From the NCBI GenBank assembly GCA_019459285.1, contig JAIBEL010000029.1:124001-188000 (forward strand): a DNA stretch of 64,000 nucleotides. Direction: 5' to 3'. This DNA comes from Rhizobium sp. GTDB taxonomy: Bacteria > Pseudomonadota > Gammaproteobacteria > Burkholderiales > Thiobacillaceae. Shown one piece after another: positions 3,461-17,782 of the stretch. The translations under genes were made by a program, and so were the position numbers. Position 1 is the stretch's first letter. Each line of letters begins with the position of its first letter. The notes under the pieces are model-generated. The model did no database searches and was not told the DNA's origin. It saw nothing but the letters and a program-made list of their open reading frames with translations.

Positions 3461-3562
3461 GGTGTAGGGTCGCCCTCCGGGCGCGCGGAATTCCTCGCCT
3501 CGATACGCCGTAGTATGCTGAACGGCGCGAACATATTCCCCTGCTGATCGGGTGCCTCCCCA

Positions 3563-4504
3563 ATGACTGACAGTTCAAAAGACACTGAAATCGACAGCGC
3601 GGTCTACAAGACCCTGCTGGAATCGACCAAGGCCATCCCCTGGAAGATCGACTGGCAAACCATGCGTTTCGCCTACATCGGGCCGCAGATCGAAAGCCTG
3701 CTCGGCTGGTCGCCGGCAAGCTGGGTGACCGTGGAAGACTGGGCGACCCGGATCCATCCCGAGGACCGGGAGCGGGTGGTCAATTTCTGCGTCGCGCAGT
3801 CCAAGGCCGGAACCGACCACGAAGCCGACTACCGCGCCCTGACGCAGGACGGCGATCACGTCTGGATCCGCGACGTGGTACACGTGGTCCGCAACGACGC
3901 CGGCGAAGTCGACGCTCTGGTCGGATTCATGTTCGACATCAGCGAGCGGAAAAAGACCGAGGAACAACTGGTCATCCTGCAGAAGGAACTGGAGGCGCTG
4001 TCTTTCAAGGACGGTTTAACCGGCGTTGCCAACCGGCGCATGTTCGACTCCATCCTGGAAGTGGAATGGGCCCACGCACGACGCAACAACCAGCCGCTGT
4101 CGGTCATCATGCTCGATATCGATTACTTCAAGCAGTACAACGACTGCTATGGCCACATCGAAGGGGATGCCTGCCTGAAACGGGTCGCCCAGACCCTGAA
4201 TTCGGCTGCGACCCGGGCACGCGATCTCTTCGCCCGCTTCGGCGGGGAAGAATTCGTGCTGGTGCTGCCCGGAACAGACGAAGGGTCGGCGGCGAAGATC
4301 GCCGAGCGCTGCCGCAGCCTGATCTTCAAGGAACAGATTCCGCACGCGCAATCCCCGGTCAGCCAGATCCTCACCGTCAGCCTCGGGGTCGGCACGATCA
4401 TCCCCTCGCACCAGGACGACCCGCTCGCATTCATTGAAGCGGTGGACAGACGGCTTTATCAGGCGAAACAACACGGCCGGAACTGCATCGTCAAAGGTCA
4501 TTGA
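3563..4504 (+). CDS. PAS diguanylate cyclase (GGDEF)
   Basis: A 313-residue cytoplasmic protein with one PAS_3-type domain and PAC tail (about 20-130), a short helical linker and a GGDEF domain (about 148-310). The catalytic loop is GGEEF (227-231), a functional variant. An RxxD inhibitory site (RARD, 218-221) lies five residues before it. It would make cyclic di-GMP in response to a PAS ligand that cannot be identified here. It follows the DRE-TIM gene by about 100 bp on the same strand, so cotranscription is possible. The start ATG is the first Met of the domain architecture. Confidence 0.92.
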   Translation: MTDSSKDTEIDSAVYKTLLESTKAIPWKIDWQTMRFAYIGPQIESLLGWSPASWVTVEDWATRIHPEDRERVVNFCVAQSKAGTDHEADYRALTQDGDHVWIRDVVHVVRNDAGEVDALVGFMFDISERKKTEEQLVILQKELEALSFKDGLTGVANRRMFDSILEVEWAHARRNNQPLSVIMLDIDYFKQYNDCYGHIEGDACLKRVAQTLNSAATRARDLFARFGGEEFVLVLPGTDEGSAAKIAERCRSLIFKEQIPHAQSPVSQILTVSLGVGTIIPSHQDDPLAFIEAVDRRLYQAKQHGRNCIVKGH

Positions 4505-4759
4505 GCCCGCCCTGAAGGCGCGCCACCCTGCTTCCTCCCGGCTCTCCCTTCCTGGCGCACCTTCTTGCTCGCCGCTTCGCGCCGTCCGTCAGGCGTGCCC
4601 GCGCCACGGAAGACATCTGCCTTCGCCCCTTACTCGCCTGGCCCCCTCATAAGGAGATGCCCGGGTCTTGATTTGGCGGGATATAGGTCTAAATTGAATG
4701 TGTAGCCGCAATGGCGGCCAACGTCCGTTGTCAAACAACCTGTTTCAAAGGAGACCATC
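4505..4759. other. upstream region of hsp20
   Basis: 255 bp without a gene. The part nearest the chaperone gene carries a plausible sigma-70-like pair, TTGATT and TAAATT about 16 bp apart, near 4669-4696, and a good AGGAG ribosome binding site just before the ATG at 4760. I could not make out a clear heat-shock sigma-32 promoter or a ROSE-type hairpin by eye. Confidence 0.35.
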
Positions 4760-5203
4760 ATGGCCAACCTCTCGCGTTACGATCCATTGAACCTCGCCCG
4801 CATCGATCCTTTCGGCGATATCGACGACCTGTTCAAGGGCTTTTTCGTGCGCCCCGCGCTCTTCGAAGGCCAGCCGCAGATGCAGATCAAGATGGACGTG
4901 AAGGAAAACGACAAGGCCTATACCGTGCATGCCGACATTCCGGGCGTGAAGAAGGAGGACATCCACGTCAGCATCGAAGGCAACCAGGTTTCGATCAGCG
5001 CCGAAACCAAGATGGAGAAAGAAGAGAAGGAAGGCGAGAAAGTGCTGCGTTCGGAGCGTTACAGCGGCAAGGTGTCGCGTAGCTTCACGCTGGCCCACGA
5101 CGTCGACGAAGCCCAGGCCCAGGCCAAGTACAACGATGGCGTGCTGGAGCTGACCTTGCCGAAGAAGGCCGTTACTTCAGCCAGGAAGCTGGCAATCCAG
5201 TAA
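4760..5203 (+). CDS. Hsp20/alpha-crystallin small heat shock protein
   Basis: A 147-residue small heat shock protein, an ATP-independent holdase that would bind unfolding cytoplasmic proteins. The N-terminal arm (about 1-40) is followed by an alpha-crystallin domain (about 42-135) with the signature strand GVLELTLPKK near the C terminus and the typical DIPGVKKEDI segment. The expected C-terminal I-x-I/V-like tail is weak (KLAIQ). AGGAG precedes the ATG by 7 nt. It faces the methyltransferase gene at 5324, with a strong hairpin between them. Confidence 0.95.
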   Translation: MANLSRYDPLNLARIDPFGDIDDLFKGFFVRPALFEGQPQMQIKMDVKENDKAYTVHADIPGVKKEDIHVSIEGNQVSISAETKMEKEEKEGEKVLRSERYSGKVSRSFTLAHDVDEAQAQAKYNDGVLELTLPKKAVTSARKLAIQ

Positions 5204-5219
5204 CCCGCCACGGGAGCCC

Positions 5220-5252
5220 GGTGCGGCGCCATTTATTTATGGACGCCGCACC
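5220..5252. terminator. hairpin between convergent genes
   Basis: GGTGCGGCG pairs perfectly with CGCCGCACC. An inner CCA/TGG pair and one bulged A enclose a T/A-rich loop. It lies 17 nt beyond the hsp20 stop and 70 bp from the end of the facing methyltransferase gene. No long U tract follows, so bidirectional termination or mRNA 3' protection are both possible. Confidence 0.5.
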
Positions 5253-5323
5253 TCGATCGGCGTCCTCAAGCACATCATTGGCCAGGCCATACAGGGCGGT
5301 ATGCTGTCGGCCCGGTTTCGGTA

Positions 5324-5965
5324 TCAAGCCCTCTCGCCGGTCGCCAGCAGCAGTCCGCCCCACAACAGCTTGGTTGACATCCCCTGTTCCAGTCGGCGAG
5401 CCAGACGCATAGCTGAAGGCAAGAAAACGGCCGAGTGCAAGGTCAGCTTGGAGACCGGCAGACCAGTGAAGAATGCACGCACTTCGCCTGGAGTATGCCA
5501 GCGGGCACCGTGATAGGCGCCGCTGCCGCCGTCGCGCCCTTTTTCCCGATACAGAAGACTGGACCGGTTGAGCCAGCCGATGGCAAAGCGGCGGCGCGCC
5601 ACCCGCACGATCTCGGCCACGGCCCGGCGTTCGTCGTCGACGAAGCACAGTGCGGCGATGGACAGCACGTGGTCGAAGCTGGCATCGCCGAACGGCAGGT
5701 CGCGCGCATCGCCTTCCACCCAGTTCAATGCCGGGCTGCTGTGGGCGCGCGCGTAATTCAGCCAACCCGGATTGGGGTCGAGTCCCGTGGCGACGAGATC
5801 ATCGGCTGCGGCGCGACGCGTGAACCAGCCGGTGCCGCAGCCGACGTCGAGCAGGCTGTTCCCTGCCTGCGGCGCAAGCAGGCGCGAAACCAGCGCGTAT
5901 TCGGTTTCGCCGATCCAGCGCCCGCGCGGGGTGGCGTACCAGGCGTCGTAGTCGGCGGGATTCAT
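5324..5965 (-). CDS. class I SAM-dependent methyltransferase
   Basis: A 213-residue protein of the Methyltransf_11 type. The glycine-rich SAM loop LLDVGCGTGWFTRR lies near 38-51, an acidic strand end (TGLDPNP) near 60 and the EGDARDLPF motif near 83. These are the usual SAM-binding elements. The C terminus is slightly hydrophobic (KLLWGGLLLATG) but not a clear membrane segment. Small-molecule substrate unknown. It follows the 66-residue ORF at 6010 by about 45 bp on the same strand and may be cotranscribed with it. Confidence 0.85.
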   Translation of the reverse strand: MNPADYDAWYATPRGRWIGETEYALVSRLLAPQAGNSLLDVGCGTGWFTRRAAADDLVATGLDPNPGWLNYARAHSSPALNWVEGDARDLPFGDASFDHVLSIAALCFVDDERRAVAEIVRVARRRFAIGWLNRSSLLYREKGRDGGSGAYHGARWHTPGEVRAFFTGLPVSKLTLHSAVFLPSAMRLARRLEQGMSTKLLWGGLLLATGERA

Positions 5966-6009
5966 TTCGTCAGTGACTGCCAGGCACGGATCAAGGCATC
6001 GGTCGCCTG

Positions 6010-6210
6010 TCAGTTGGACAACCAGCGAACATGAATCCGCGCCGCCCCCTCAACGCGCGCCTGATGCACCGCCGTCTTGGCGGCGCGCCCGTAAACAGGG
6101 TCGGACGGAAGATTGCCATAGTGCAACCGCAGATAAAGTGACATCTCCCCGTCGACCCATAGATCGATCGACGTGGCGGCGTTGCAGTCAAGGTGGACAG
6201 GATCGCTCAT
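6010..6210 (-). CDS. small hypothetical protein (66 aa)
   Basis: A 66-residue ORF starting at ATG 6210, whose ATG overlaps the stop of the upstream PLP-enzyme remnant (ATGA). That arrangement suggests it was once the next gene of an operon and relied on translational coupling. The product is soluble, with alternating hydrophobic residues around WVDGEMSLYLRLHYG and a basic C-terminal half. I do not recognise a family. A longer frame upstream exists but has no start with a ribosome binding site. Moderate confidence that it is a real gene. Confidence 0.5.
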   Translation of the reverse strand: MSDPVHLDCNAATSIDLWVDGEMSLYLRLHYGNLPSDPVYGRAAKTAVHQARVEGAARIHVRWLSN

Positions 6211-6317
6211 GCAAGTGCCTGATAGAGATCGGCGATCAAGTCGTCCGCATTTTCCAACCCGACCGAGAGGCGCAGCATGGCGGGGGATATGCTGCCGAAC
6301 GGGGTGCCGAACAGCTT
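6207..6317 (-). pseudogene. C-terminal remnant of a Cys/Met-metabolism PLP enzyme
   Basis: Translation of the minus strand gives a 36-residue tail ending in a stop. It contains LRLSVGLENADDLIADL, the C-terminal signature of the cystathionine gamma-synthase / O-acetyl- or O-succinylhomoserine sulfhydrylase family. No start, lysine-PLP site or other domain precedes it, and upstream the frame soon loses family resemblance and meets the TauE/SafE gene. The parent gene has therefore been deleted down to its last ~110 bp. Its stop still overlaps the start of the next small ORF. Confidence 0.75.
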
Positions 6318-6343
6318 GACGCATCTGCACGTTCCACGTCACA

Positions 6344-7147
6344 TCAGCCTCCCATCACATTCTTGAACAGGATATACGTCGCAACCACCACCAGGAACCA
6401 GGCGAAGCTGCGTTTCAGGCCCTCCTGCGACAATCGGCTGGAAAAACGCGCGCCAGCGAAGCTGCCCAGCACGGTTACCGCGGTAAAGCCGGCCATGATT
6501 TCCCATGAGATCGGCACGCTGCCCAGATAGCCGGCGAAGCCCACGGAGGAATTCGCGGCCACTATGGCAAGCGAGGTAGCCACTGCCTGCTTGATGGGAA
6601 TGCCGGAGAGCAGTACCAGAGTCGGGACGATGAGGAAGCCGCCACCCACCCCCACCACGCCGGTGAGCAGCCCCACCGAGATGCCGGCCAGGGCAATATA
6701 GGCCATGCAAGGAGAGAAATAATGTCGGCAGCCATTCATGGCCAACGTCCCGTCAGCCGAAAGCATGGATCCGGCTGCAGGGGCCGGCAAAATGGCCGGC
6801 TTTCGCTGCATGCGCCAGGCGGCGGCATACATCACCAGCGCAAACAGGCTGAGCTGGACGATTGCAGGAATCGCCACGCCCAGGCGCGTACCCGTGAAGG
6901 TGCCGAACGCGCCAAAGGATGCGAAAACCAGCGCCACCTTCAGGTCCACATTGCCGCGGCGGGCGTGATTTATGGCCGCCAGCGTGGCAGTCACCGCTAC
7001 CACGCCCAAGCTCATGGCAATGGCTGACTTGGGCTCCACATGCAGCAGATACACCAGTGCCGGCAGGGCGATGATGGATCCCCCGCTGCCCAGGAGGCCC
7101 AGGACGAAGCCGGTACCGAGACCAGCCAGAATTGCGAAGACGTCCAT
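6344..7147 (-). CDS. sulfite exporter TauE/SafE family permease
   Basis: A 267-residue integral membrane protein with about eight hydrophobic segments and the two glycine-rich repeats typical of TauE/SafE (LLGSGGSIIALPAL near residue 20 and GVVGVGGGFLIVPTLVLL near 165). Family members export sulfite, sulfoacetate or other small sulfur or organic anions across the inner membrane. The start is ATG 7147, with GAGG five bases upstream; a GTG two codons earlier lies inside that site. The gene follows an ArsR-rhodanese regulator and has a near-perfect 26-bp dyad in front, so regulated export of a sulfur oxyanion is a good guess. Confidence 0.88.
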   Translation of the reverse strand: MDVFAILAGLGTGFVLGLLGSGGSIIALPALVYLLHVEPKSAIAMSLGVVAVTATLAAINHARRGNVDLKVALVFASFGAFGTFTGTRLGVAIPAIVQLSLFALVMYAAAWRMQRKPAILPAPAAGSMLSADGTLAMNGCRHYFSPCMAYIALAGISVGLLTGVVGVGGGFLIVPTLVLLSGIPIKQAVATSLAIVAANSSVGFAGYLGSVPISWEIMAGFTAVTVLGSFAGARFSSRLSQEGLKRSFAWFLVVVATYILFKNVMGG

Positions 7148-7162
7148 ATCCACCTCGGCTCA

Positions 7163-7188
7163 AGTATTCAAACGATCGCTTGAATACT
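7163..7188. promoter_or_regulatory. 26-bp inverted repeat, probable ArsR-type operator
   Basis: AGTATTCAA and TTGAATACT form perfect 9-bp arms around ACGATCGC, itself almost symmetric, so only the central flanks break the dyad. It lies 16 bp upstream of the TauE/SafE start and 57 bp beyond the stop of the ArsR-rhodanese gene. The size and symmetry fit an ArsR/SmtB-family dimer, and the adjacent regulator is the natural candidate. Confidence 0.7.
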
Positions 7189-7244
7189 GGGCGAGGGAAA
7201 GACGCCTGTCAATCAATATTTGAGACGGATTGAACCCGCTACGC

Positions 7245-7907
7245 CTAATCCCGCGTCCCGCTATCGACGGGCCGACTTTCGGCCTTCCATTCGGGAAAGC
7301 CGTCTTCAAGGCGGCGCGCCTGGTAACCCGCTTCACGCAACCGGGCCACGGCCTCGAAGGCCAGCATGCAGAAGGGGCCGCGGCAATAGGCGACGATTTC
7401 CTGCCCGTGCGGCAGGGCTTCCAGGTGTTGCGGCAGCTCATCCACCGGGATATTGATCGCGCCGGGGATGTGGCCCGCCTGGTATTCCGTGGCAGGCCGC
7501 ACGTCGATGACCATGGTCTCGCCTGCCTTGACCCGGGCCATCAACTCGTCGCGCCCTACGGGAGTCAGCGCGTCGCGTGTATCGAAGTGTTCACGCACAA
7601 TGCGTTCCACCTCGGCCAGATGTTTTTCCGCGATGTTGCCGATACAGCCCATCAGGGTCGGAATCTGGTCATCCGACAGACGGTAAATGACCTGCAGCCC
7701 CTCCCTGCGTGATTCAGCCAGGCCGGAATCGCGCAGTATCTGCAGGTGGTGCGAGGTGTTGGCAACCGACATGCCTGTTGCCTGCGCCAGGGCATCCACG
7801 CTCCTTTCGCCCTGCGCCAGCGCCTCCAGCAATTCCAGCCGATTCGGGCTTGCAAGCGATTTGGCGACACGGGCGAATTGCTCGAACAACTTCTTTTTGG
7901 GGTTCAT
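7245..7907 (-). CDS. ArsR-family regulator fused to a rhodanese domain
   Basis: A 220-residue protein. Residues about 8-95 form an ArsR winged helix with the recognition helix in SVANTSHHLQILRDSGL. Residues about 115-212 form a rhodanese domain with the loop YCRGPFC. The leading Cys is the expected persulfide-carrying nucleophile and a second Cys stands five residues later. The paired Cys of BigR/SqrR-type sensors are absent from the winged helix, which has one Cys. The rhodanese loop may therefore be the sensor of sulfane sulfur, by inference. Immediately upstream of the TauE/SafE gene; paralogue of the gene at 12000. Confidence 0.9.
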   Translation of the reverse strand: MNPKKKLFEQFARVAKSLASPNRLELLEALAQGERSVDALAQATGMSVANTSHHLQILRDSGLAESRREGLQVIYRLSDDQIPTLMGCIGNIAEKHLAEVERIVREHFDTRDALTPVGRDELMARVKAGETMVIDVRPATEYQAGHIPGAINIPVDELPQHLEALPHGQEIVAYCRGPFCMLAFEAVARLREAGYQARRLEDGFPEWKAESRPVDSGTRD

Positions 7908-8073
7908 AGTTAATTATCCCCGTAAACGCCGGACCTATCGATGGCCGATCATCCATCCAACGGGGCTGAAGTTGGCGAGTCCGACAAGGCGCACCTTGAG
8001 AGCGGGGGTCAGCTGACCGAATCCCGCCCAAGCTGGCTGCGGCAGAGAATCCGGGACATGGGCCCGGGGCTGC

Positions 8074-8391
8074 CTACGCCCCTTCCAGCATACGTTCCAG
8101 AGGCGCTTCCAGGGCCTCGGCCAAGCCAACCAGGCTTGCTTCATCCAGCCCCGCCACCGCCAGTACCGAGTACAGATCTGCCGGCATCAGGATGACCCCG
8201 TCCGCCGGCTGAGCGGGGATACCGTTCACCAGCAGCGAAGGAAAACCCGAACCATGCGCGTCTCGCTCGGTGCTGAATACGACTTCCGTCCGGGCATGCA
8301 GGCTGGCGGCCAGTACCTCGGCATAGCCGGCATAGAGGCCGCATCGCCCGCCCGGGGGATGTTGGGAAATGACACGAATATGCAAGGCCAT
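8074..8391 (-). CDS. small hypothetical protein, thioredoxin-like fold possible
   Basis: A 105-residue soluble protein with a good AAGGG ribosome binding site five bases before its ATG. The N-terminal strand (HIRVISQ) and a following Pro-Pro-Gly-Gly-Arg-Cys turn, one helix (GYAEVLAASLHA), a strand and a G-F-P-S-L-L-V-N-G segment suggest an Rdx/SelW-like or thioredoxin-like fold. Only one Cys is present, so a CxxC mechanism is excluded. It is the last gene of the run that starts with the MBL hydrolase, 44 bp after the transglutaminase-like gene. Function unknown. Confidence 0.65.
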   Translation of the reverse strand: MALHIRVISQHPPGGRCGLYAGYAEVLAASLHARTEVVFSTERDAHGSGFPSLLVNGIPAQPADGVILMPADLYSVLAVAGLDEASLVGLAEALEAPLERMLEGA

Positions 8392-8435
8392 CGTTACCCT
8401 TCAATGACACTGATTAAGCAAAATCATGGCCACGC

Positions 8436-9392
8436 TCAAGCTCCTGCCAGGTGGCTGACGATGCTGTACCCCTGCGCGCCCGCCTCGATGCCGAGCGGAA
8501 CGCCAGCAGCCTCGACGTAGGGCGCGGTAAAGAGATTGAGCGGCCCGCCCGCCGCTGGCGGCTCGAGGCGGAAGTCGCGGGCGTGATTGTAGGCGATCCA
8601 GTTGGCCTCGGCGCCGCCCAGGAGAAACGCATCAACTTCACGCCGCAACGTCTCGGGCACACCTGCGTCGGCCAGCTTCAAGGCATCGGCGGGATCGGCC
8701 GGCACCCAACCGAGGCCCCCCAGATAGATCTCCGCCCGGGTATGCAGCGCCTGGGTGACATCGCCGGAGGCCCCGAGTGCGGAATCGAAACGCGACGGCG
8801 CGGCGCGGATGCCCAGCATCGTGCGCGCCGGCAGGCCCGCTGCCCGGCACAAAGCCACCAGCAGCGAATTGATGTCCACGCACTTGCCGCAGAATTCCCC
8901 GGCCGCCAGCATCGCCGGCACATCGCCCAGCCCGCACCAGGCGACATCGAAGCGGCGCTGGGCATGGGTCAGGACCCAGTCATAAAGAGCACGCAGCTTG
9001 GCCGCGGGCGTGTCCCGGCCCTGCGTGATCGCCTCGGCGCGGGTGCGGACTGCGCCCTCGACAGGCAGATGCACGCTCTCTGCCAGGTAGCGCCGCGCGT
9101 CCTCGGGCAACGGGGCATCCATGCTGGCCTGCGCAAGGTCGAAGACCGCCTCCTGTGTCTCCATACGGACGGAGACGGTCAATCGAGGATCGTTCCGGAC
9201 GCCCGGCCAGCGTACGAACAGGATGGGTGCGCCATGCGCCGGGTCGTGATGGAGTGCAGGCTTGGCATGGTTGCCATTGCATTCAAGCGCCAGCCGCCAT
9301 TGATGCGAGGTATCTTGCGGCACGGGCAGCCACAGGGCTAGATCCTGGAAGCTACCCTGCAGCGCCAGTTGGAACGTCAGATCGATCTGCAC
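8436..9392 (-). CDS. transglutaminase-like superfamily protein
   Basis: A 318-residue protein. The first ~110 residues form a beta-rich region like the N-terminal domain of bacterial transglutaminase-like proteins. A papain-fold core follows with all three catalytic positions visible: Cys in FCGKCVDINSLL, His in LHTRAEIYLG and Asp in WVPADPAD. It has no signal peptide or membrane segment, unlike many relatives, so a cytoplasmic protease or amidase-type activity is possible. I chose GTG 9392. A TTG at 9410 overlapping the stop of the rhodanese gene (TTGA) is an alternative. Tight coupling to a rhodanese gene is unusual. Confidence 0.82.
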   Translation of the reverse strand: MQIDLTFQLALQGSFQDLALWLPVPQDTSHQWRLALECNGNHAKPALHHDPAHGAPILFVRWPGVRNDPRLTVSVRMETQEAVFDLAQASMDAPLPEDARRYLAESVHLPVEGAVRTRAEAITQGRDTPAAKLRALYDWVLTHAQRRFDVAWCGLGDVPAMLAAGEFCGKCVDINSLLVALCRAAGLPARTMLGIRAAPSRFDSALGASGDVTQALHTRAEIYLGGLGWVPADPADALKLADAGVPETLRREVDAFLLGGAEANWIAYNHARDFRLEPPAAGGPLNLFTAPYVEAAGVPLGIEAGAQGYSIVSHLAGA

Positions 9393-9406
9393 GGCACGGG
9401 TCGGAC

Positions 9407-9862
9407 TCAATGCCCGGCCGGCTGGCTGGCGCGCGCATTGGCCTCGAATCCGCCCTTCTTCTTCCAGCCCTCGATGCCGTCCTGCAGCACCTTGACGTTG
9501 TCGTAACCCAGCAGACGCAGCGCGAACACCGCCTGCGCGGACAGCGAACCGGAGTTGCAGTACACCACCACCATGCGGTCCTTCGGCAATTCGGCGCGGC
9601 GCGCCACCGCCTGCCGCCACTCGATGTTGACCGCACCGGGGATGTGTTCCTTGGCGTACTGCGCGGCGTCGCGCGCGTCGACGATGAAGACCTTTTTCCA
9701 GTCGTCCGCCGGGATCTGTTCCGGCCAGATCAGGCTGCTGCCGTATTCGGTGAAGTCCATATAGCCGGACAGTGCATCGACCACGGCGGCGTTTTCTTCG
9801 GCGTGCACGGGCGCTGCGAATAGTGCGAGGCTGGCAAGCAGGGCGGCCAGGGTTCTGTTCAT
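9407..9862 (-). CDS. periplasmic single-domain rhodanese
   Basis: A 151-residue protein with a cleavable signal peptide (about 1-21, ending in VHA) and one rhodanese domain (about 45-140). The catalytic loop begins with the Cys in VVVYCNSGSLSAQ. It should carry or transfer sulfane sulfur in the periplasm. The sequence before the domain contains YGSSLIWPEQIP, seen in PQQ-associated or thiosulfate-related rhodaneses. It sits 22 bp after the MFS gene and its stop abuts the transglutaminase-like start, so it is part of the same operon. Confidence 0.9.
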   Translation of the reverse strand: MNRTLAALLASLALFAAPVHAEENAAVVDALSGYMDFTEYGSSLIWPEQIPADDWKKVFIVDARDAAQYAKEHIPGAVNIEWRQAVARRAELPKDRMVVVYCNSGSLSAQAVFALRLLGYDNVKVLQDGIEGWKKKGGFEANARASQPAGH

Positions 9863-9884
9863 GGGATTTCCTTGGTCAGGACGA

Positions 9885-11192
9885 TCAATCGTCGGCCGGG
9901 TTGAGCCGCGGGTGGGTTTCCTCGCACGCCATCAGGACGATGAGGCCCGAGACGAACATGGCGGCGGCGGTGAACCAGAATCCCGCCTCGATGCCGCCGA
10001 ACAGCGCGGCCACCGCGCCCAGCAGCAGCGCGCCGATGCCGTAGCCGAGGTCGCGCCAGAAGCGGTAAATGCCGATGGCCGAGCCGCGCCAGTTGGGGTG
10101 GGCGATGTCGGACACGGCGGCGGACAGCGTGGGGTACAAGAGCGCCATGCCGAAGCCCATCACCGCGGCGGCGAACGACCACCACAACTCGCCATCGCCC
10201 AGCAGTACCAGGGCGACGCCGGTACCGCACAGCCACATGCCCCAGACGATGGGCTGCTTGCGGCCGACGCGGTCGGACAGATGGCCAGTGAAGAACTGCG
10301 ACATGCCCCAGACGAAGCCATACACACCGACCACCCAGCCGATGCCGGGCAGGGACAGCCCTCGCTGATGCAGGTAGACCGGGAAGAACACCCATACCAG
10401 CGCATCGACGAATTTCTCCACCAGGCCGGCCTGGCTGATCGACGCCATACGCGCATCGCGCCACGACATCAGGGTGAACACGTCCCAGGTGCTGGGCTTG
10501 TCCGCGATGTTGGTGGGGTAGCGCGGCTTCGGCCCGGTCATCTGCCCGGCCGCGTACTTCTTCCCCTCGGCCTGCGCCCACGGCAGCGTGTCCTTGACCC
10601 ACAATAGCGTCAGCAACCCGGCCAGCAGGATGACGGTGAGGCCGAACAGCATCAGGCCCTGGCGCGGCCCGAAGGCGGTGGCCATATAGCCGGTGACGAT
10701 ACCCGCGACCGCGACGCCGAAGTAGCCGGAGAACTCGTTGAGGCCGATGGTGAGGCCGCGTTGGTTGGCGGTGGTGAGATCGAGCTTGGAGGTCTGCGTC
10801 ATCGACCAGGTGAGCCCCTGGTTCACGCCCAGGAGCACCGTCGCTGCGACGATCCAGTTCCAGTTCGGCGCGTAGAGGATCATGAAGGGCATCGGCACCG
10901 CTGCCAGCCAGCCGAGGAACAGCACCTTCTTGCGCCCCATGCGCTCGGACAGGCGGCCGGCGACGAAGTTGAGCGTGCCCTTGACGAAGCCGAAGGCGGT
11001 GACGAAGGCCATCAGCATCATGAACGAGCCCTTGGCCACACCGAACTCGGTTTCGGCGAGCGCCGGCACCACGGTGCGGAACATGCCGATCGTGAGGCCG
11101 ACGAGGAACACCTGCACCAGCTGGTGCGAGAACTGGGCGAAATTATTGCGGATACCGTAGCGGTACTCCGCCACACCCTGGGTCAGCAACAT
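9885..11192 (-). CDS. MFS transporter
   Basis: A 435-residue major facilitator with about 12 hydrophobic segments, the loop motif GRLSERMGRKKV between helices 2 and 3 and its echo GHLSDRVGRKQP in the second half. The substrate is not evident. The start ATG 11192 lies 2 bp beyond the stop of the MBL gene, so translation is probably coupled. Because it is flanked by a persulfide dioxygenase-type protein and a periplasmic rhodanese, a sulfur compound (sulfite, thiosulfate or an organosulfur) is a reasonable but unproven cargo. Confidence 0.87.
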   Translation of the reverse strand: MLLTQGVAEYRYGIRNNFAQFSHQLVQVFLVGLTIGMFRTVVPALAETEFGVAKGSFMMLMAFVTAFGFVKGTLNFVAGRLSERMGRKKVLFLGWLAAVPMPFMILYAPNWNWIVAATVLLGVNQGLTWSMTQTSKLDLTTANQRGLTIGLNEFSGYFGVAVAGIVTGYMATAFGPRQGLMLFGLTVILLAGLLTLLWVKDTLPWAQAEGKKYAAGQMTGPKPRYPTNIADKPSTWDVFTLMSWRDARMASISQAGLVEKFVDALVWVFFPVYLHQRGLSLPGIGWVVGVYGFVWGMSQFFTGHLSDRVGRKQPIVWGMWLCGTGVALVLLGDGELWWSFAAAVMGFGMALLYPTLSAAVSDIAHPNWRGSAIGIYRFWRDLGYGIGALLLGAVAALFGGIEAGFWFTAAAMFVSGLIVLMACEETHPRLNPADD

Positions 11193-11194
11193 GG

Positions 11195-11926
11195 TCAGTT
11201 GCCCAGGTTGAAGGCGACCATACGATCCATTTCCGCAGGACGCGGCGGAATGGCTTCGGTCAATGCGGTCACGAACGCGTCCCGGCTCATCGCCAGCATG
11301 GGGTTCCAGCGCTTCTCGAAGCCGATCGTCGACATCGGCTTGCCGGACATGCCGGCGCCGCAGGCGCTGCCCGAGGTATGGCCGGGATACAGCTCGACCT
11401 CGGCCGGCAGCGTCAGCAGGCGCTGGTGCAGCGTGCCGTAGAGCTGTCCCGCCATCTCGATTTCCTTGCCAGCGAGATCGGGCCGTCCGGCGCTGCCGAC
11501 GAACAGGGTGTCGCCGGTCAGGACGAACCATGGCGTCTCGGTACGACGCTTGTCGGTCACCAGCAGGCAGATCGAATCCGGGGTGTGGCCGGGGGTGTGC
11601 AGCACGTCGACAAAGACGTTGCCAACGTCGATACGCTGGCCATCCTTCAGCGGCTCGAACGGGTAGTTCACGCGCCCCTTATTGGACTCGTGCAGGCAGT
11701 AGGCTGCCCCGGTTCTCTCGGCCAGGGCACGCGCGCCGGAAAAGTGGTCGGCGTGGACATGCGTGTCGATGACGTGGGTGATTTTCACGTCCTGTTTCGC
11801 CGCTTCCTCGAGGAACCACAACTCATCGCCCAGAACGGGATCGACGACGACACCGACATGGCAGGAACCGCAGCCGAAAAAGTAGGACAGGGTGGCGTCC
11901 TTGGCCAGCAATTGACGAAAGAACAT
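11195..11926 (-). CDS. MBL-fold persulfide (sulfur) dioxygenase-like hydrolase
   Basis: A 243-residue metallo-beta-lactamase-fold protein with the metal motif THVHADH, the later HTPGH, GDTLFVG and YPGH ligands, and the ETHE1/Blh-type layout. Such enzymes oxidise glutathione persulfide to sulfite, using a mononuclear iron. The residues after YPGHTSGSACGAGMSGKP resemble the sulfur dioxygenase branch rather than glyoxalase II. First enzyme gene downstream of the second ArsR-rhodanese regulator; the gap holds a heptamer repeat. Sulfite made here could be exported by the nearby MFS or TauE/SafE protein (inference). Confidence 0.88.
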   Translation of the reverse strand: MFFRQLLAKDATLSYFFGCGSCHVGVVVDPVLGDELWFLEEAAKQDVKITHVIDTHVHADHFSGARALAERTGAAYCLHESNKGRVNYPFEPLKDGQRIDVGNVFVDVLHTPGHTPDSICLLVTDKRRTETPWFVLTGDTLFVGSAGRPDLAGKEIEMAGQLYGTLHQRLLTLPAEVELYPGHTSGSACGAGMSGKPMSTIGFEKRWNPMLAMSRDAFVTALTEAIPPRPAEMDRMVAFNLGN

Positions 11927-11945
11927 GGAAGTCTCCTCGATGGGA

Positions 11946-11994
11946 AGTGGTGAGCGGTGAGCGGTGAGTGGTGAGTGGTGAGCGGTGAGTGGTG
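11946..11994. repeat. heptanucleotide tandem repeat, 7 copies of AGYGGTG
   Basis: Seven uninterrupted 7-bp units, AGTGGTG or AGCGGTG, fill the gap between the ArsR-rhodanese stop (12000) and the MBL start (11926); an eighth degenerate unit touches the stop. Related arrays occur at 51767, 57797 and 63062. The repeat separates the regulator from the rest of its likely operon, leaving about 19 bp for the MBL ribosome binding site. Confidence 0.9.
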
Positions 11995-11999
11995 AGTCG

Positions 12000-12662
12000 T
12001 CAGGACTCGGCCAGCGGCAGGCCAGCCGCCTGCCATTCGGGGATGCCGTCGGCGATCTTCTGCGCGCGGTAGCCGTGCTCCTTCAGCAGCGCCACCGCCT
12101 CGGCGGACATCATGCAGAATGGCCCGCGGCAGTAAGCGACGATGTCCTTGTCGGCCGGCAGTTCCTTGATGCGCTGGCGGATTTCCTCCAGCGGCATCGA
12201 ACGCGCAAACGGCAGATGGCCGCTGGCGAATTCGACGGATGGACGCACGTCGATCACCACCACGTCACCACGCCGCGCCTTCTCCATCAGCGAACGCCGC
12301 GTTTCGGTATCGAGCTTTTCCGGCGCGGCGAAGATCTGGTCCATGGCCACTTTCAGTTCGACCAGATGTTCTTCCGCCACCGTGCGCAGGTTGACCCACA
12401 GGGCGCTGACGTCCTCGCCCGACAGCCGATAGGCGATGAAGCGGCCATCGCGCTGCGCCTCGACCAGGCGCGCCGCCTTCAGCACCTTGAGGTGCGCGCT
12501 CGCCAGCTTGATGTCGATGTTGGCTTCGGCTGCCAGGGCATCCACGGTCTTATCGCCCTGCGCCAGAATTTCCAGCAGTTCCAGCCGTTTGGGACTGGAG
12601 ACGGCTTTGCCGATGCGGGCGACCTGTTCGTAGAGCAGGTCCTTGGTTTGACGTTTGTTCAT
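12000..12662 (-). CDS. ArsR-family regulator fused to a rhodanese domain
   Basis: A 220-residue paralogue of the protein at 7245. It has an ArsR winged helix (about 8-95, recognition helix around DIKLASAHLKVLKAARL) and a rhodanese domain (about 118-215). The catalytic loop is again YCRGPFCM, followed by EAV. The winged helix has no Cys at all, so any thiol sensing must use the rhodanese loop. It heads the run MBL-MFS-rhodanese-transglutaminase-like-small protein and probably controls it. Its own promoter region carries a small AT-rich dyad at 12681. Confidence 0.9.
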   Translation of the reverse strand: MNKRQTKDLLYEQVARIGKAVSSPKRLELLEILAQGDKTVDALAAEANIDIKLASAHLKVLKAARLVEAQRDGRFIAYRLSGEDVSALWVNLRTVAEEHLVELKVAMDQIFAAPEKLDTETRRSLMEKARRGDVVVIDVRPSVEFASGHLPFARSMPLEEIRQRIKELPADKDIVAYCRGPFCMMSAEAVALLKEHGYRAQKIADGIPEWQAAGLPLAES

Positions 12663-12680
12663 GAAACGAACATTCGCACG

Positions 12681-12694
12681 ATTATTAGATTAAT
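12681..12694. promoter_or_regulatory. AT-rich dyad upstream of ArsR-rhodanese gene
   Basis: ATTA-TTAGAT-TAAT, 18 bp before the start codon at 12662, is a short inverted repeat in a locally AT-rich stretch. ArsR-family autoregulators often bind such sites. It does not match the 26-bp dyad at 7163, so the two paralogues may have different targets. Confidence 0.3.
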
Positions 12695-12940
12695 GCAAGA
12701 TCCATTTCGACCGGCACGCCACTTAACCACCACGCCCGCGTACTGGCTGCGGATTGATTTTTCGCAAGAGTAGTTGGCCTATAGTGTGGTAAATACGTCC
12801 CGCCCATCGGGCCGCATGACCCCAAACAAAGGCATACAGCGCCCGATGGCTCAGCGTGTTCAAAACAACGAAGAATGGAATTTGATGGTCCCAGACAGTC
12901 GACCGCATGATGACGCCCCCCTTGGCAAGGGCGCCATCCC

Positions 12941-13645
12941 ATGAAGCCGAATTGCACCAACCCCGAATGGATCGGCCGCGCGAAATGCGCCGTGTGTGAC
13001 GTACGCAACTTCGTCCTGTTCTCGGGCCTGTCCATGCACGAGCTGGATACGATCCTGCAGCCCATCGACAATCTGCATGTGCCCCAGCATGCAGTGCTGT
13101 ACGAGCAGGGGGCGGCAGCGCCCAGTGTCTTTACCCTGCGTCACGGACTCATCAAGCTCAAGGTCGACCTGCCCAACGGCGGACAGCGCATCGTGCGGCT
13201 GTTGCGGCCGGGTGACGTGGCCGGCATGGAAACCCTGGTGGGCGAGCGTTATCACCACACCGCCATCGCCCTGCAGGATGCTGATGTCTGCCGCATCCCG
13301 CGCGAGGTCGTCATCCAGCTCGACAAGACCAACCCGAGCGTGCACCAGGCCCTGCAGCAGCGCTGGCAGCGCTCGATAGACCAAGCCGATCATTTCATCG
13401 TGGCACTCTCCACCGGCCCGGCGGAAGCCCGCATGGCGCGCCTCCTGATCACGCTCGGTTGCACCGGCACGTTGCCGGAAACGCTGATGCCGAGCCGCGA
13501 GGACATGGGCGCCCTGCTCGGCATCACGACCGAAACGGCCAGTCGCATCATGGCCGAATTCAGGCGACGCGGCCTGATCCATATCGAAAAAGGCGGCTGC
13601 ATCGATTACGACTACAACGGATTGACGCAACTGGCGCAGGGCTGA
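12941..13645 (+). CDS. Crp/Fnr-family regulator with FNR-like cysteines
   Basis: A 234-residue protein with a cyclic-nucleotide-type sensor barrel (about 28-145), a dimer helix and a C-terminal winged helix (about 170-230) whose recognition helix reads TTETASRIMAEF, with the E..SR core of FNR proteins. It has Cys at 5, 16, 19 and 117. The N-terminal CxxC plus a barrel Cys resembles the four [4Fe-4S] ligands of FNR (20, 23, 29, 122), though the spacing differs. An oxygen- or redox-sensing role is likely. Its target may be the site at 13679 before the next gene. Confidence 0.87.
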   Translation: MKPNCTNPEWIGRAKCAVCDVRNFVLFSGLSMHELDTILQPIDNLHVPQHAVLYEQGAAAPSVFTLRHGLIKLKVDLPNGGQRIVRLLRPGDVAGMETLVGERYHHTAIALQDADVCRIPREVVIQLDKTNPSVHQALQQRWQRSIDQADHFIVALSTGPAEARMARLLITLGCTGTLPETLMPSREDMGALLGITTETASRIMAEFRRRGLIHIEKGGCIDYDYNGLTQLAQG

Positions 13646-13678
13646 ATTGCCTGTTGCCTAATTGATACATTTGGTGCA

Positions 13679-13692
13679 TTGACAATTCTCAA
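13679..13692. promoter_or_regulatory. FNR-like box
   Basis: TTGACAATTCTCAA matches the TTGAT-N4-ATCAA consensus except at the two inner positions. It lies 34 bp past the stop of the Crp/Fnr gene and 116 bp before the outer-membrane protein gene, a plausible activation distance. One half alone (TTGAT) recurs at 13662. Confidence 0.45.
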
Positions 13693-13807
13693 TTTGATCA
13701 GGTAGCGAAAATTAATCTCTTAGAATTGGATCCAGTTTTGCCTGACCCGTTGAAACCCCAATAACGAAAGGGAAGGCGCCAGCAGGCGGTCTGCCCGGAG
13801 AATACGA

Positions 13808-16492
13808 ATGAAATATGCTTTGAAGCCGCTGGCCGCATGCATGGCCACCCTGTTTGGTGCCGCATCGTTCAACGTGTGGGGCGCACCGCCGGCCACGCCC
13901 CCAGTCCAGACCCAGAACCAGAGCCCTAGCGGCGCCCAGACCGGCGCACCCGTTGCCACGGCCCCGACCGTGCTGGCGACCCGCCCGATGACGTCGGTCT
14001 TCCCGACGCAGCCGGACGAGTTCCCCGGCATTCCCTGGGGATCGTTCCTGGTGTTCCCGGAAGTGTCGCTGGCCGCCACCTACGACGACAACATCTACGC
14101 CGAGCGCCCCTACACCGCCCCGCGCACCTACGTGACCGATGACGTGGTCTACACGCTGTCGCCGTCGATCGCGCTCAAATCCAAATGGACGCGGCACGCG
14201 CTGAACTTCGATGCGGGCGGCGACTTCGACCGCTACCGCAACCACAACTCGGAAAACGTCAACGACTACTGGCTCGGCTTCGACGGCCGCTATGACCTCA
14301 GCCCAACGACCAACGTGTTTGGCGGCGTCCGCCACTCGCGCGATCACGAAGACCGTTCCACCCCGGGCAGCGACATCGGGCAAATCAAACCGACTCTGTA
14401 CGACCACGAGGAAGCGCACCTCGGCCTCGCCCATTCGTTCGGCGCCTTCCGTCTGCGACTCGGCGGCACGTACGACCAGTACGACTACAAGAACGGGATT
14501 GACGGCGCCTCCGGCCTGCCGACCAACAACGACTACCGCGACCACAACCTGAACTCGCTGGGCGTGCGCCTGGGCTATGTGCTGTCGCCCCGATACGAGC
14601 TTTTTGGCCAGGTGGCAACCGACAATCGCCGCTACGACAATCTGATCCCCGGCCAAAGCTTCAATCGTGACTCGGACGGTTACCGTGCCGCGGCCGGGGT
14701 GAAATTCACCCTGCAACCCCAGCGCCTGACGGGCGAAGCCTTCGCCGGCGTGATGGGTCAGAATTTCGACTACACCGGATTCTCCGACATCACCAAGCCG
14801 TATTTCGGCTTGCTGACCGTCTGGAAGCCGACATCGCTGACAACCGCGACCCTCTTCATCGACCGCTCGCTCGAAGAAACCACCGTCTTCAGCGGTCCCA
14901 GCTATGCCTCCAGTTCGACCGACACGACCTACGGCTTCGAGGTGGAACGCCACCTGACCAGCAAGCTGTCGGTCAACGGCCGCGCCGCCTACACCCACAG
15001 CGACTTCAACGACTTCGCCCGCGTCGACAAGATCGTCGACGCGGGCGCCGGCCTGCGCTACTACGTGATGCCCAACGTCTATCTGGGTGCCGACCTGCGC
15101 ATCATCGACCGGGCCTCCAGCGACATTGCTGCGCAATACAGCCGCAACCAGATGCTGGTCAGCGTCGGCTACACCCCGGCGCGCAACCGCGACTACGCCA
15201 TCATCCCAGAACGCGAGGCAGGCGCCCCCGAAGCGCCGCGTGCGCAAGGCGTGTATTCCGGCTTCTATCTGGGCGCCCAGATGGGTCATGGCGGGTTGAC
15301 CACGGCAACCTGGGGTCCACGCGGCGGCGGCGGCAGCGACACCGCCGGCATGGGCGACTTTGGCGCCAGCTACGCGTTGTTCGGCGGCTGGGGCACCGAG
15401 CTCGCCGACAACTGGTATCTCGGCGTCGAACTCGACGGCGGCGACAGCAACGCCAACTGGAAACACCGCAAGATCAAGAACGACGCCCCCACCGTATTGG
15501 TGGACAAGGACAGCAACTATGGCCTGAGCCTGCGCGCCGGCTACCTGCTCGACGGCGGCATGCTGTACGGCAAATTCGGCAAGGTGCGGACCGATTTCCA
15601 TACCTACTACACCGAGAACCAGTTCAGTTCGGGCGCCTACGACCGGGATCAAACCCTGACCGGCAACCGCGTCGGGCTGGGCCTTGAAATCCCGGCTTCG
15701 CGCAATCTGTTCGTGCGCACCGATTACAGCGTCACCCGCTATGGCAGCTATGACGTGCCCTATCAGTCTTCCGGCGGCGGCGCGACCACGACAGAAACCT
15801 TCAAGACCGGCGACGCCGTCTTCAGTCTCGGTCTCGGCTGGCGTTTCGGCGGTCAGCGTCCCCTCGTCGCCACACGCCCGGCCACCGAACTGCGCGGCCT
15901 CTATATGGGTGCCAACCTCGGTCACGGCACCCTGGGTAGCCGGCTGACCGGCACCCAGTACGATAGCGGGGTCGGCCCCTATGACTTCACCGGCGACTTC
16001 GCCCGCTCCGGCTTCAGCGGCGGCTTCTTCGCCGGCTACGGCTATACCTTCAGCCAGATCTATGTCGGTCTGGAACTGGAGGCGGAGGCGGCCAATTTCG
16101 GCTGGGAACACGAACGGGATACCGCAGGCTCGGGCGGCCGCGACTTTGCCTCGGAGAAACGCGGGGGCTATGGCGGCAGCATACGGATCGGTTATGTGCT
16201 GCCCAACGGCAGCCTGCTCTACGGCCGCATCGGCCAGGTGCAGACCCGCTTCAATACGTTCTACAGCCGGGGCGCCGGTACGCCGGTCAACCAGAGCGAC
16301 AATTTCGACGGTACACGCGTCGGCCTCGGCGCCGAGATTCCGGCCTCGCGCAACACCTTCGTTCGCATGGACTACAGCTATACCCGCTACAACGATCCGG
16401 TGACGGTCAGCCCCCAGCAACCGACGGCAGACATCATGCGCTTCGACAACACGGAAACCTTGGCCCGCCTGGGCCTCGGCTATCGCTTCTAA
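13808..16492 (+). CDS. outer-membrane protein: large barrel plus two duplicated small barrels
   Basis: An 894-residue exported protein. Signal peptide about 1-26, Pro/Gln/Thr-rich linker to about 60, then a BBP2-like outer-membrane barrel (about 70-475) rich in aromatic beta hairpins. Two OmpA/opacity-like domains follow (about 485-690 and 700-894). Both begin with a GxYxGAxxGHG segment and both contain EIPASRN followed by FVRxDYSxTRY, proof of an internal duplication. The chain ends in YRF, the terminal Phe expected for BAM recognition. Three barrels in one chain is unusual; alternatively the small domains could form one barrel together. Possible roles are adhesion, export or porin activity. 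Followed by a terminator. Confidence 0.85.
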   Translation: MKYALKPLAACMATLFGAASFNVWGAPPATPPVQTQNQSPSGAQTGAPVATAPTVLATRPMTSVFPTQPDEFPGIPWGSFLVFPEVSLAATYDDNIYAERPYTAPRTYVTDDVVYTLSPSIALKSKWTRHALNFDAGGDFDRYRNHNSENVNDYWLGFDGRYDLSPTTNVFGGVRHSRDHEDRSTPGSDIGQIKPTLYDHEEAHLGLAHSFGAFRLRLGGTYDQYDYKNGIDGASGLPTNNDYRDHNLNSLGVRLGYVLSPRYELFGQVATDNRRYDNLIPGQSFNRDSDGYRAAAGVKFTLQPQRLTGEAFAGVMGQNFDYTGFSDITKPYFGLLTVWKPTSLTTATLFIDRSLEETTVFSGPSYASSSTDTTYGFEVERHLTSKLSVNGRAAYTHSDFNDFARVDKIVDAGAGLRYYVMPNVYLGADLRIIDRASSDIAAQYSRNQMLVSVGYTPARNRDYAIIPEREAGAPEAPRAQGVYSGFYLGAQMGHGGLTTATWGPRGGGGSDTAGMGDFGASYALFGGWGTELADNWYLGVELDGGDSNANWKHRKIKNDAPTVLVDKDSNYGLSLRAGYLLDGGMLYGKFGKVRTDFHTYYTENQFSSGAYDRDQTLTGNRVGLGLEIPASRNLFVRTDYSVTRYGSYDVPYQSSGGGATTTETFKTGDAVFSLGLGWRFGGQRPLVATRPATELRGLYMGANLGHGTLGSRLTGTQYDSGVGPYDFTGDFARSGFSGGFFAGYGYTFSQIYVGLELEAEAANFGWEHERDTAGSGGRDFASEKRGGYGGSIRIGYVLPNGSLLYGRIGQVQTRFNTFYSRGAGTPVNQSDNFDGTRVGLGAEIPASRNTFVRMDYSYTRYNDPVTVSPQQPTADIMRFDNTETLARLGLGYRF

Positions 16493-16520
16493 GTTACTGA
16501 ATCCGAGGCAAATTTAATCG

Positions 16521-16552
16521 ACGGCCATTGCGAAAAATCAATGGCCGTTTTA
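16521..16552 (+). terminator. rho-independent terminator after the barrel gene
   Basis: ACGGCCATTG and CAATGGCCGT pair perfectly around an A-rich 8-nt loop and are followed by TTTTA. It ends the transcript of the outer-membrane protein gene 29 nt past its stop. Confidence 0.85.
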
Positions 16553-16648
16553 AAGGGACCTGCTAGTCTTCAATTGTAATCAATGTAATTTTGGCCCGGT
16601 CGCGAGGTCGGGGGCAAAAAGTCGAAGTCATCAAATATGGAGAGATAC

Positions 16649-17782
16649 ATGACATACCCCACATACAATTTCAAAAAACTGATCCTCGCTGGCGGCACGA
16701 TGTTTGCGATGCTGGCCATTCCACTGGCCGTCAGTTCGGTGACCAGTCTGGATCTGGGCGTGATTTCGGCCGCTCATGCTGCAGATGATGGCGGTTCCTC
16801 CAAGAAGAGTGGCGGCCACAAAGGCAAGGCCGGCAGCCAGAAGGGCACTCAGGGCAAGGGCGGCGCATCGAGCAACAAGATTTTCCGCATTCCGGCCGCT
16901 GAGGAAGACAGCGATCGCCCGGTGTGGGCGGGCGTGAAGGGCGGCAAGTCCGGTGGTGGCGGCAAGCCGGCCGGGGCAGGCAGCAAGAAAGGCGACCTGT
17001 ATGGCGACATGGTCGTCCTGCTGCGCGACGCCAACGGTGCGCCCATCCTGACCTCCGCCGGCTTGGTGCAGGTCGTCGCCTACGTCTACGATGCCTCCGG
17101 CAACCTGGTTCCGATGAAAGACGCCTCCGGCAATCCGGTGGTGATTCCCTACAATGCGGACGGCGATCTGGTGACCGAGATCAACGGTGTGCCGGTCTAT
17201 TCGGCTGAAGTCGATCTGGGCCGTCTGAGCGTGGGCCGCGCACCGAGCAAGGTACTGGATCATTCGCTGACCGAAGCGCTATCCAAGCTGACTGCGGGCG
17301 CCGTGACCCTGGACTCGACCGGCCGTCTGGCGGTGGATGGCGTGACCATCGACTCGCCGCTGGAAAACCTGGCGCTGTACGACAAGTACATGACCACCGG
17401 TTCGCTGCCGGGCGTGACGCTGCCGGCCGGCTTCAATCCCGCATCCTTGCTGGCGGCCGCTTCCGACAAGTACGGCAGCATCAGCGTGGATACCGTGGTC
17501 TACATGAACTCCATCCTCGGGGTCAACAGCACCACGTACTACAACTTCTCCACCACCAACTACGATCGCTACACGACCTGGAAGAACGCGACCGCACAGA
17601 TCCTGGTTCTGCAGCCGGATGGCGTGACGTATAAAGTGGAAACGGTGAACCTGTACGACGCGGTGTTCAACGACACCAACTGGGTTGACCCGACGCCAAC
17701 GGGCGGCGCGGACGATTTCGCGACCGCTGCGGACGACTACCGGGCCGTGATCGAGTTCGTTCACGACAACGCCGTTCGTTGA
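16649..17782 (+). CDS. secreted hypothetical protein (377 aa)
   Basis: The start ATG 16649 is preceded by GGAGAG at the right distance; an ATG four codons upstream sits on that site. A long signal peptide (about 1-42, ending in SAAHA) leads into a basic Gly/Lys/Ser-rich linker (about 45-110). A folded region follows, with repeated NGAP/DASGNxVP-type turns around 125-170, and the chain ends as an aromatic, Asn/Thr-rich C-terminal half. There are no Cys in the mature part. I recognise no family. Placed between the triple-barrel protein and the His-rich protein, it may be a secreted partner or cargo. Confidence 0.72.
   Translation: MTYPTYNFKKLILAGGTMFAMLAIPLAVSSVTSLDLGVISAAHAADDGGSSKKSGGHKGKAGSQKGTQGKGGASSNKIFRIPAAEEDSDRPVWAGVKGGKSGGGGKPAGAGSKKGDLYGDMVVLLRDANGAPILTSAGLVQVVAYVYDASGNLVPMKDASGNPVVIPYNADGDLVTEINGVPVYSAEVDLGRLSVGRAPSKVLDHSLTEALSKLTAGAVTLDSTGRLAVDGVTIDSPLENLALYDKYMTTGSLPGVTLPAGFNPASLLAAASDKYGSISVDTVVYMNSILGVNSTTYYNFSTTNYDRYTTWKNATAQILVLQPDGVTYKVETVNLYDAVFNDTNWVDPTPTGGADDFATAADDYRAVIEFVHDNAVR

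Follow-up and report, generated by a model that had tools for sequence, protein, structure and literature searches.

A putative persulfide operon with a rhodanese-fused ArsR regulator and a variable tail with a transglutaminase-like gene in Thiobacillaceae

Gene organization of the locus

A cluster of six minus-strand genes was analysed in a 64,000-nucleotide stretch of DNA (the window; positions 124,001 to 188,000 of contig JAIBEL010000029.1, GenBank assembly GCA_019459285.1, a 3.38-Mb draft of 74 contigs), assigned to Rhizobium sp. and placed by GTDB in the family Thiobacillaceae. The cluster (unit 1) comprises an ArsR-type regulator fused to a rhodanese domain, a persulfide dioxygenase (PDO)-like protein of the metallo-beta-lactamase (MBL) fold, a major facilitator superfamily (MFS) carrier, a rhodanese, a transglutaminase-like gene (TG) and a small gene, with the following features:

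12672-12691, minus strand: candidate operator AATCTAATAATCGTGCGAAT of unit 1; a promoter-like -10 element (AATAAT) overlaps with it
12000-12662, minus strand: ArsR-rhodanese repressor 1 (open reading frame list; Pfam rhodanese and ArsR helix-turn-helix, HTH)
11946-11997, no strand: 7-base tandem repeat, 7.4 copies, inside the 73-base gap between regulator and PDO
11195-11926, minus strand: MBL-fold PDO-like protein (open reading frame list; Pfam Lactamase_B)
9885-11192, minus strand: MFS carrier (Pfam MFS_1), with ATG at 11192; the open reading frame list has a longer frame
9407-9862, minus strand: single-domain rhodanese with its cysteine in CNSGSL (Pfam Rhodanese; Sec-type signal peptide judged by eye)
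8436-9392, minus strand: TG, with a GTG start (Pfam Transglut_core)
8074-8391, minus strand: gene of a small 105-amino-acid protein of an unnamed family, with an invariant cysteine in GGRC (alignment of relatives)

The gaps of 73, 2, 22, 14 and 44 bases reported in the initial annotation all agree with the open reading frames and the sequence, the repeat said to fill the first gap is the 7-base tandem repeat, and the gene families guessed there were recovered with Pfam for every gene except the small one. A longer TG frame, reaching up to 9620, would overlap the rhodanese gene. Against relatives, TG has ratios of nonsynonymous to synonymous substitution (dN/dS) of 0.17-0.24, the small gene of 0.12-0.27, and the other four genes (regulator 1, PDO, the MFS carrier and the rhodanese) of 0.05-0.32, indicating that these genes are more than chance open reading frames. 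The second ArsR-rhodanese gene and the TauE/SafE gene that had been noted downstream are likewise present:

7245-7907, minus strand: ArsR-rhodanese repressor 2 (Pfam), with a promoter-like site at 7913-7941
7166-7185, no strand: putative palindromic operator ATTCAAACGATCGCTTGAAT before tauE (pattern search)
6344-7153, minus strand: TauE/SafE sulfite-exporter family protein (Pfam TauE profile, 3.7e-47)
5965-9405, no strand: block with TG, the small gene, regulator 2, tauE and remnants, missing from the closest relative

Conservation of the regulator-PDO-MFS core

Gene order was compared among 42 loci of the family without a TG ortholog, 18 loci of the class and five named TG-bearing loci. Matches to the MFS carrier were detected in 66 of 117 family genomes and, with the window's own counted, in 27 of 369 class genomes. 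The regulator and PDO precede the carrier in 39 of the 42 family loci without TG and in all five with it. The three family exceptions are L153, which was fetched only up to the MFS gene; L188, which has a divergent second-type regulator; and L207, where PDO is present and the regulator was not found. In L041, one of the five TG-bearing loci, the regulator and PDO appear as split matches (L041:6230-7619), so that they are broken or misassembled there. Elsewhere in the window's genome, the next best PDO matches are one of 32% identity and a fragment of 42% identity.

The tail of the operon is variable. Of the 42 family loci without a TG ortholog, 22 have a rhodanese behind the MFS gene; downstream, 11 carry the small gene, 9 carry TauE, 7 have another MFS gene and 5 have a second regulator, and TG is found in none. 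Conservation of the gene order is borne out for the regulator-PDO-MFS core and fails for the six-gene unit. The idea of one six-gene system was rejected: the tail varies, the small gene does not lie behind TG in the five named orthologs, TauE is preceded by a putative operator of its own, and the entire block at 5965-9405 is missing from the closest relative, so the six genes do not form a single conserved unit. The initial reading, in which a rhodanese-fused ArsR regulator controls genes for persulfide handling, is supported at the level of sequence by this conserved core order and by the palindrome before the regulator described below. The locus is read as a persulfide operon whose kind is known, whose regulator layout is new and whose tail is movable. 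As a separate observation, a MerT gene (Pfam; L037:7482-7838) and, just after it, a MerP-like gene (by eye) are located between PDO and the MFS gene of the L037 operon.

Operator-like sites and the ArsR-rhodanese regulators

Operator sites were scored on 20 positions, three of which are N positions that always count as a match. A site resembling ATTCTAA-N6-TTAGAAT, a pattern drawn from the same sequences, was present at a score of at least 15 in all 51 type-1 regulator upstream regions that could be cut out, the window included, and 1.5% of shuffled sequences reached this score. When up to three mismatches were allowed over the whole 3.38-Mb genome, the pattern was found only at 12672-12691 and 7166-7185, and a backward control pattern had no match in the genome at the same tolerance. 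Eight of the 14 regions upstream of TauE, including that of the window, also carry the site; the site was missing where TauE is located in the tail of unit 1 (L037, L038, L162, L173 and L179) and also in L207. With three mismatches allowed, the tauE-type pattern matched the window 15 times, where chance alone would give 8, and its exact form occurs only at tauE. A scan of the window gave 2 promoter-like sites (1.1 expected) and 12 terminator-like ones (4.9 expected), which are not evidence by themselves. In the predicted placement of its operator, across the promoter of genes for sulfur oxidation, the locus shares a trait of the BigR/SqrR type.

In the window's genome, only two ArsR-rhodanese fusions were detected, both at this locus, the third match being to the rhodanese part alone. 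Regulator 1 has no cysteine in its HTH part and carries CRGPFC in the rhodanese domain, regulator 2 has one HTH cysteine together with CRGPFC, and the cysteine pair of the BigR/SqrR ArsR domain was found in neither. Among 52 type-1 regulators, the HTH part has no cysteine in 40, one in 7 and two in 5, all of them within the first 25 residues of the counted stretch; the count was made by position and not by alignment to BigR. CRGPFC or CRGPYC was present in the rhodanese domain of 51 of the 52, the exception being the truncated reading of L041. Judging from these residues, sensing may be performed by the rhodanese-domain cysteines of CRGPFC.

PDO and comparison with known sulfane-sulfur systems

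The PDO carries the motifs THVHADH (55-61), H114, D139, H183 and GRPD, of which the histidines and aspartate at 55-61, 114 and 139 are taken to be the iron ligands, and solved persulfide dioxygenases were among its structure matches. In its MBL fold and putative ligand residues it resembles the persulfide dioxygenases ETHE1, Blh, SdoA and SdoS.

A close likeness is with the bigR operon (BigR, Blh and TauE) of Xylella and Agrobacterium, for which PMC5823870 describes an ArsR-type repressor over a -10 region, a sulfur dioxygenase, a sulfur transferase and a sulfite exporter. BigR uses Cys42/Cys108 according to the same paper, whereas regulator 1 lacks cysteines in its HTH part and is joined to a rhodanese domain; Blh is a transferase-dioxygenase fusion, whereas the PDO is an unfused protein of 243 amino acids with Lactamase_B-type matches only; and an MFS carrier, an exported rhodanese, TG and the small gene are additional here. 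SqrR, sHdrR and SoxR are ArsR-type as well, with two conserved cysteines in the ArsR domain, and are said to act on pdo, rhd and transport genes (PMC12423496), whereas the conserved cysteines of the present regulators are in the rhodanese domain. PMC5584763 places Thiobacillus enzymes in the SdoS subgroup of sulfur dioxygenases, of which this PDO may be a member; the paper also reports a dsrE-like gene downstream of sdo1 in A. caldus. The YedE transporter described in PMC10812762 is not the MFS carrier of this operon.

The transglutaminase-like enzyme

TG possesses a triad of C171, H217 and D233, with an extra C168 that forms a CGKC motif at the catalytic cysteine, and has no signal peptide. 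The modelled papain-like core with its Cys-His-Asp triad is in keeping with the transglutaminase-like superfamily, and the best structure match is 3isr, a transglutaminase-like putative cysteine protease of Cytophaga hutchinsonii (16% identity), for which no sulfur context is known to us. Cys168 is fixed in the operon clade and was not seen in the TG paralogs. That TG might be an ordinary cytoplasmic cysteine protease or amidase, cleaving for instance glutathione conjugates or a regulatory protein, with the CGKC pair incidental, is a possibility held at well under even chances; the fold, the triad and the match to 3isr agree with it, whereas the distribution of Cys168 and the thiol or selenium genes next to paralogs in 21 of 25 family loci (by a gene list chosen afterwards) argue against it.

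Orthologs of TG were detected in 7 of the 117 family genomes, two of them only in pieces. The nearest orthologs with a named source come from Thiobacillus denitrificans RG and from four metagenome genomes, labelled Thiobacillus (two), Hydrogenophilales (one) and Proteobacteria (one). The earlier statement that TG stands beside the rhodanese as part of the operon holds in that TG follows directly behind the rhodanese in all five named orthologs, so that it belongs with the operon; with so few family genomes carrying the ortholog, the statement is supported in part. In the class sample, matches at E 1e-30 or better occurred in 4 of 369 genomes, the window's own included, and the other three are paralogs of 33-38% identity. 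The TG tree of 41 rows (window, L037-L040 and 36 paralog rows; the larger-flank copies of the same genes, L054-L062, and the partial ortholog L041 were excluded) recovered the operon clade firmly as one group, but the long branch of this clade joins other long rows, which leaves its position among the paralogs unsure. TG is proposed to be an accessory that the operon has recruited, the cytoplasmic representative of a transglutaminase-like family that is mostly exported and is linked to selenium and thiol-redox genes.

Origin of the tail block

The closest relative, genome G106 (locus L150), matches window positions 3000-5964 at 94.8% and 9406-16998 at 90.4%, and only six bases separate the two flanks there, window positions 5964 and 9406 corresponding to L150 positions 6295 and 6302. 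As the flanks nearly abut in G106, the block 5965-9405 represents either an insertion here or a clean loss in G106. In synonymous distance (dS), the regulator, PDO and MFS genes are nearest to the sister L150 (0.23-0.36), whereas the rhodanese next to TG is at 0.34 from the TG-bearing L037 against 0.70 from L150, which favours exchange. Remnants are found in the block, where 6210-6293 encodes 28 amino acids that are 75% identical to the C-terminus of a Cys/Met-type pyridoxal phosphate (PLP) enzyme that adjoins the small gene in another genome; beside it, at about 6083-6187, is a weak cysteine-desulfurase-like stretch (37% over 35 amino acids, E 0.04). Behind TG, TauE is present in L037 and L038, and no listed gene in L039-L041.

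These observations bear on the possibility that TG is a passenger without sulfur function, brought in when a block of TG, the small gene, regulator 2 and TauE recombined into the tail of a standard PDO operon. The precise lack of the block in G106, the split affinity of the rhodanese and the upstream core in both dS and identity profile, and the fragment of a Cys/Met-metabolism PLP enzyme all speak for it; the passenger reading is nevertheless considered improbable, as TG is under purifying selection in all 4 comparisons and lies behind the rhodanese of the same operon in the five named orthologs even though the genes beyond differ.

Exported TG paralogs and selenium or thiol genes

A TG paralog of 41% identity is located between selA and selB in the window's genome. 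Among 25 family paralog loci (from 25 of the 28 paralog-bearing genomes, the remaining three having no locus), 14 have selA and selB, with the TG-like gene standing between the two, 6 have dsbD, 1 has formate-dehydrogenase genes and 4 have none of the listed genes; listed context genes thus accompany 21 of 25 paralog loci against 2 of 105 control chunks, where the list was chosen after the neighbourhoods had been seen and the controls were taken around the MFS operon in the same family, not at random from the genome. SelA was detected in 37 of the 117 family genomes, and by a hand tally, uncorrected for kinship, selA occurs in 18 of the 28 genomes that have an exported-type TG paralog and in 19 of the 89 that lack one. 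Exported TG-like genes between selA and selB were seen in the Thiobacillus genomes of L056 (6939-11449, with SelA and SelB confirmed by Pfam), L054 and L002; a second clade of exported TG-like genes is tail to tail with dsbD in L014, L022, L024 and L025; and others directly precede MerT- or MerP-like genes in L228-L231 (by eye) and L238 (annotated).

Beyond the family, 14 of 24 class and phylum rows had a listed neighbour, which becomes 13 of 22 distinct loci with selD, mnmH, tlpA-like, selB, fdh or merT neighbours once L033/L231 and L035/L219, which are the same genes, are merged. Among 66 plasmid records containing a TG relative, five annotated regions were read, and they agree in part with this pattern. 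The neighbourhoods include selD, TG, selB, selA and fdhE together in a plasmid region of Rhizobium sp. CC-CFT758; TG adjoining cysteine desulfurase, TusA and DsrE in Paracoccus ferrooxidans, with selB and selA about 5-6 kb to either side; selB at 4.4 kb from the TG relative on pSymA of S. meliloti; and an annotated TG-MerT pair on a Providencia plasmid. In the Alloyangia pacifica plasmid region, none of the selenium, thiol or MerT context genes was found beside the TG relative.

No description of a link between TG and selenium was found among the papers listed by the literature searches, where transglutaminase appeared as one table entry on another organism's enzyme in PMC5322559 and otherwise only in PMC6267555. 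The gene between selA and selB appears to be a selenium or formate-dehydrogenase accessory gene that is so far undescribed. Tentatively, and with the odds against it, an undescribed transglutaminase-like branch may act in chalcogen (sulfur/selenium) thiol chemistry, its exported members serving selenoprotein or formate-dehydrogenase maturation and periplasmic thiol redox, while the Thiobacillus branch would have moved to the cytoplasm, been given its CGKC pair and been recruited into a persulfide operon with a rhodanese-domain sensor. The real surprise of the locus is the transglutaminase-like family on which it has drawn, and TG offers a lead outside the window: in several lineages, transglutaminase-like genes are located within or next to genes for selenium, disulfide reductase and formate dehydrogenase.

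The small 105-amino-acid protein

The family of the small protein, of about 105 amino acids, has a single invariant cysteine (GGRC) in 26 aligned members (of 28 extracted rows). The gene was detected in 37 of the 117 family genomes and, at E 1e-8, in 3 of the 369 class genomes, the window's included, and no plasmid match was found at E 0.01. TauE is within 1.5 kb of the small gene in 19 of 30 loci. In some loci the small gene is followed by a DsrE-type gene (Pfam on one). The window's small open reading frame has no Pfam or NCBIfam match; among its 26 relatives the best Pfam E-value was 0.036, for Transglut_core in one member. The thioredoxin-like nature suggested initially was not confirmed, as Thioredoxin_13 appeared in only two of the 26 (best E 0.13) and the matches to PDB profiles were at E 1.3 and worse, with none under E 1. 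The single-sequence model is of low confidence (pLDDT 55), with the order beta-alpha-beta-beta-beta-alpha-alpha. The small gene is a sulfur-cassette gene that merely happens to stand behind TG in this window.

Proposed mechanism

Unit 1 is read as a sulfane-sulfur-responsive Thiobacillus operon with TG as a recruited accessory, a full mechanism to which we give somewhat better than even chances. The reading draws on gene order, operator sequences, residues, predicted fold, selection and paralog context as shown here; the ligand, the direction of transport and all TG chemistry are inferred. The ArsR-rhodanese repressor would occupy the palindrome over its own -10 region, and loading of the CRGPFC rhodanese-loop cysteines by persulfide or polysulfide would release it and allow transcription of the operon. 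PDO would then oxidise low-molecular-weight persulfide to sulfite; the MFS carrier would transport sulfite or a substrate through the membrane, in the role held by TauE in the bigR operon; and the exported rhodanese would deal with sulfane sulfur in the periplasm. The second ArsR-rhodanese regulator and TauE would constitute a neighbouring unit with its own operator. Because its catalytic cysteine is part of a CGKC pair, TG is proposed to be a thiol enzyme whose activity would be gated by, or work through, persulfide on that pair. Such a gene set is probably a switchable one for sensing and burning off reactive sulfur in a sulfur-oxidising bacterium. The core thereby offers a clean, testable sulfur-sensor case, in which the sensing cysteines would be in the fused rhodanese and not in the DNA-binding domain, with only two operator-like sites in the window's genome.

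Several observations weigh against this reading. The regulator and PDO are kept around the MFS gene in just 6 of the 18 class loci, so the carrier also exists without PDO; the operator before regulator 1 in the window is an imperfect palindrome (4 of 7 pairs); the genome-wide count is the sole check separate from the sequences that supplied the operator pattern; and the tail TauE of L184 has its own palindrome (15/20), contradicting the rule that a TauE in the tail has none. As for TG, it is missing from the same operon in all 42 other family loci examined and is therefore dispensable, and the gain of Cys168 is one evolutionary event.

A response to soft metals or mercury instead of sulfane sulfur, based on shared thiol chemistry, was also weighed and is thought very improbable. 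An ArsR/SmtB-type HTH in the regulator, the MerT and MerP-like genes inside the L037 operon, and the exported TG paralogs that adjoin MerT- or MerP-like genes in L228-L231 and an annotated MerT on the Providencia plasmid would fit it. Against it stand the presence of merT in a single operon of those read, the sulfur-related nature of the PDO, rhodanese and TauE genes, and the lack of an HTH cysteine in 40 of the 52 type-1 regulators.

Neighbouring genes

Divergent from the operon, a CRP/FNR-type regulator is located at 12941-13645, a position kept in 8 of the relatives mapped. On the other side, a methyltransferase gene is found at 5324-5965 (Pfam); a similar gene stands immediately behind the rhodanese in L150, the closest relative, and, as judged by eye, also in L159 and L189.

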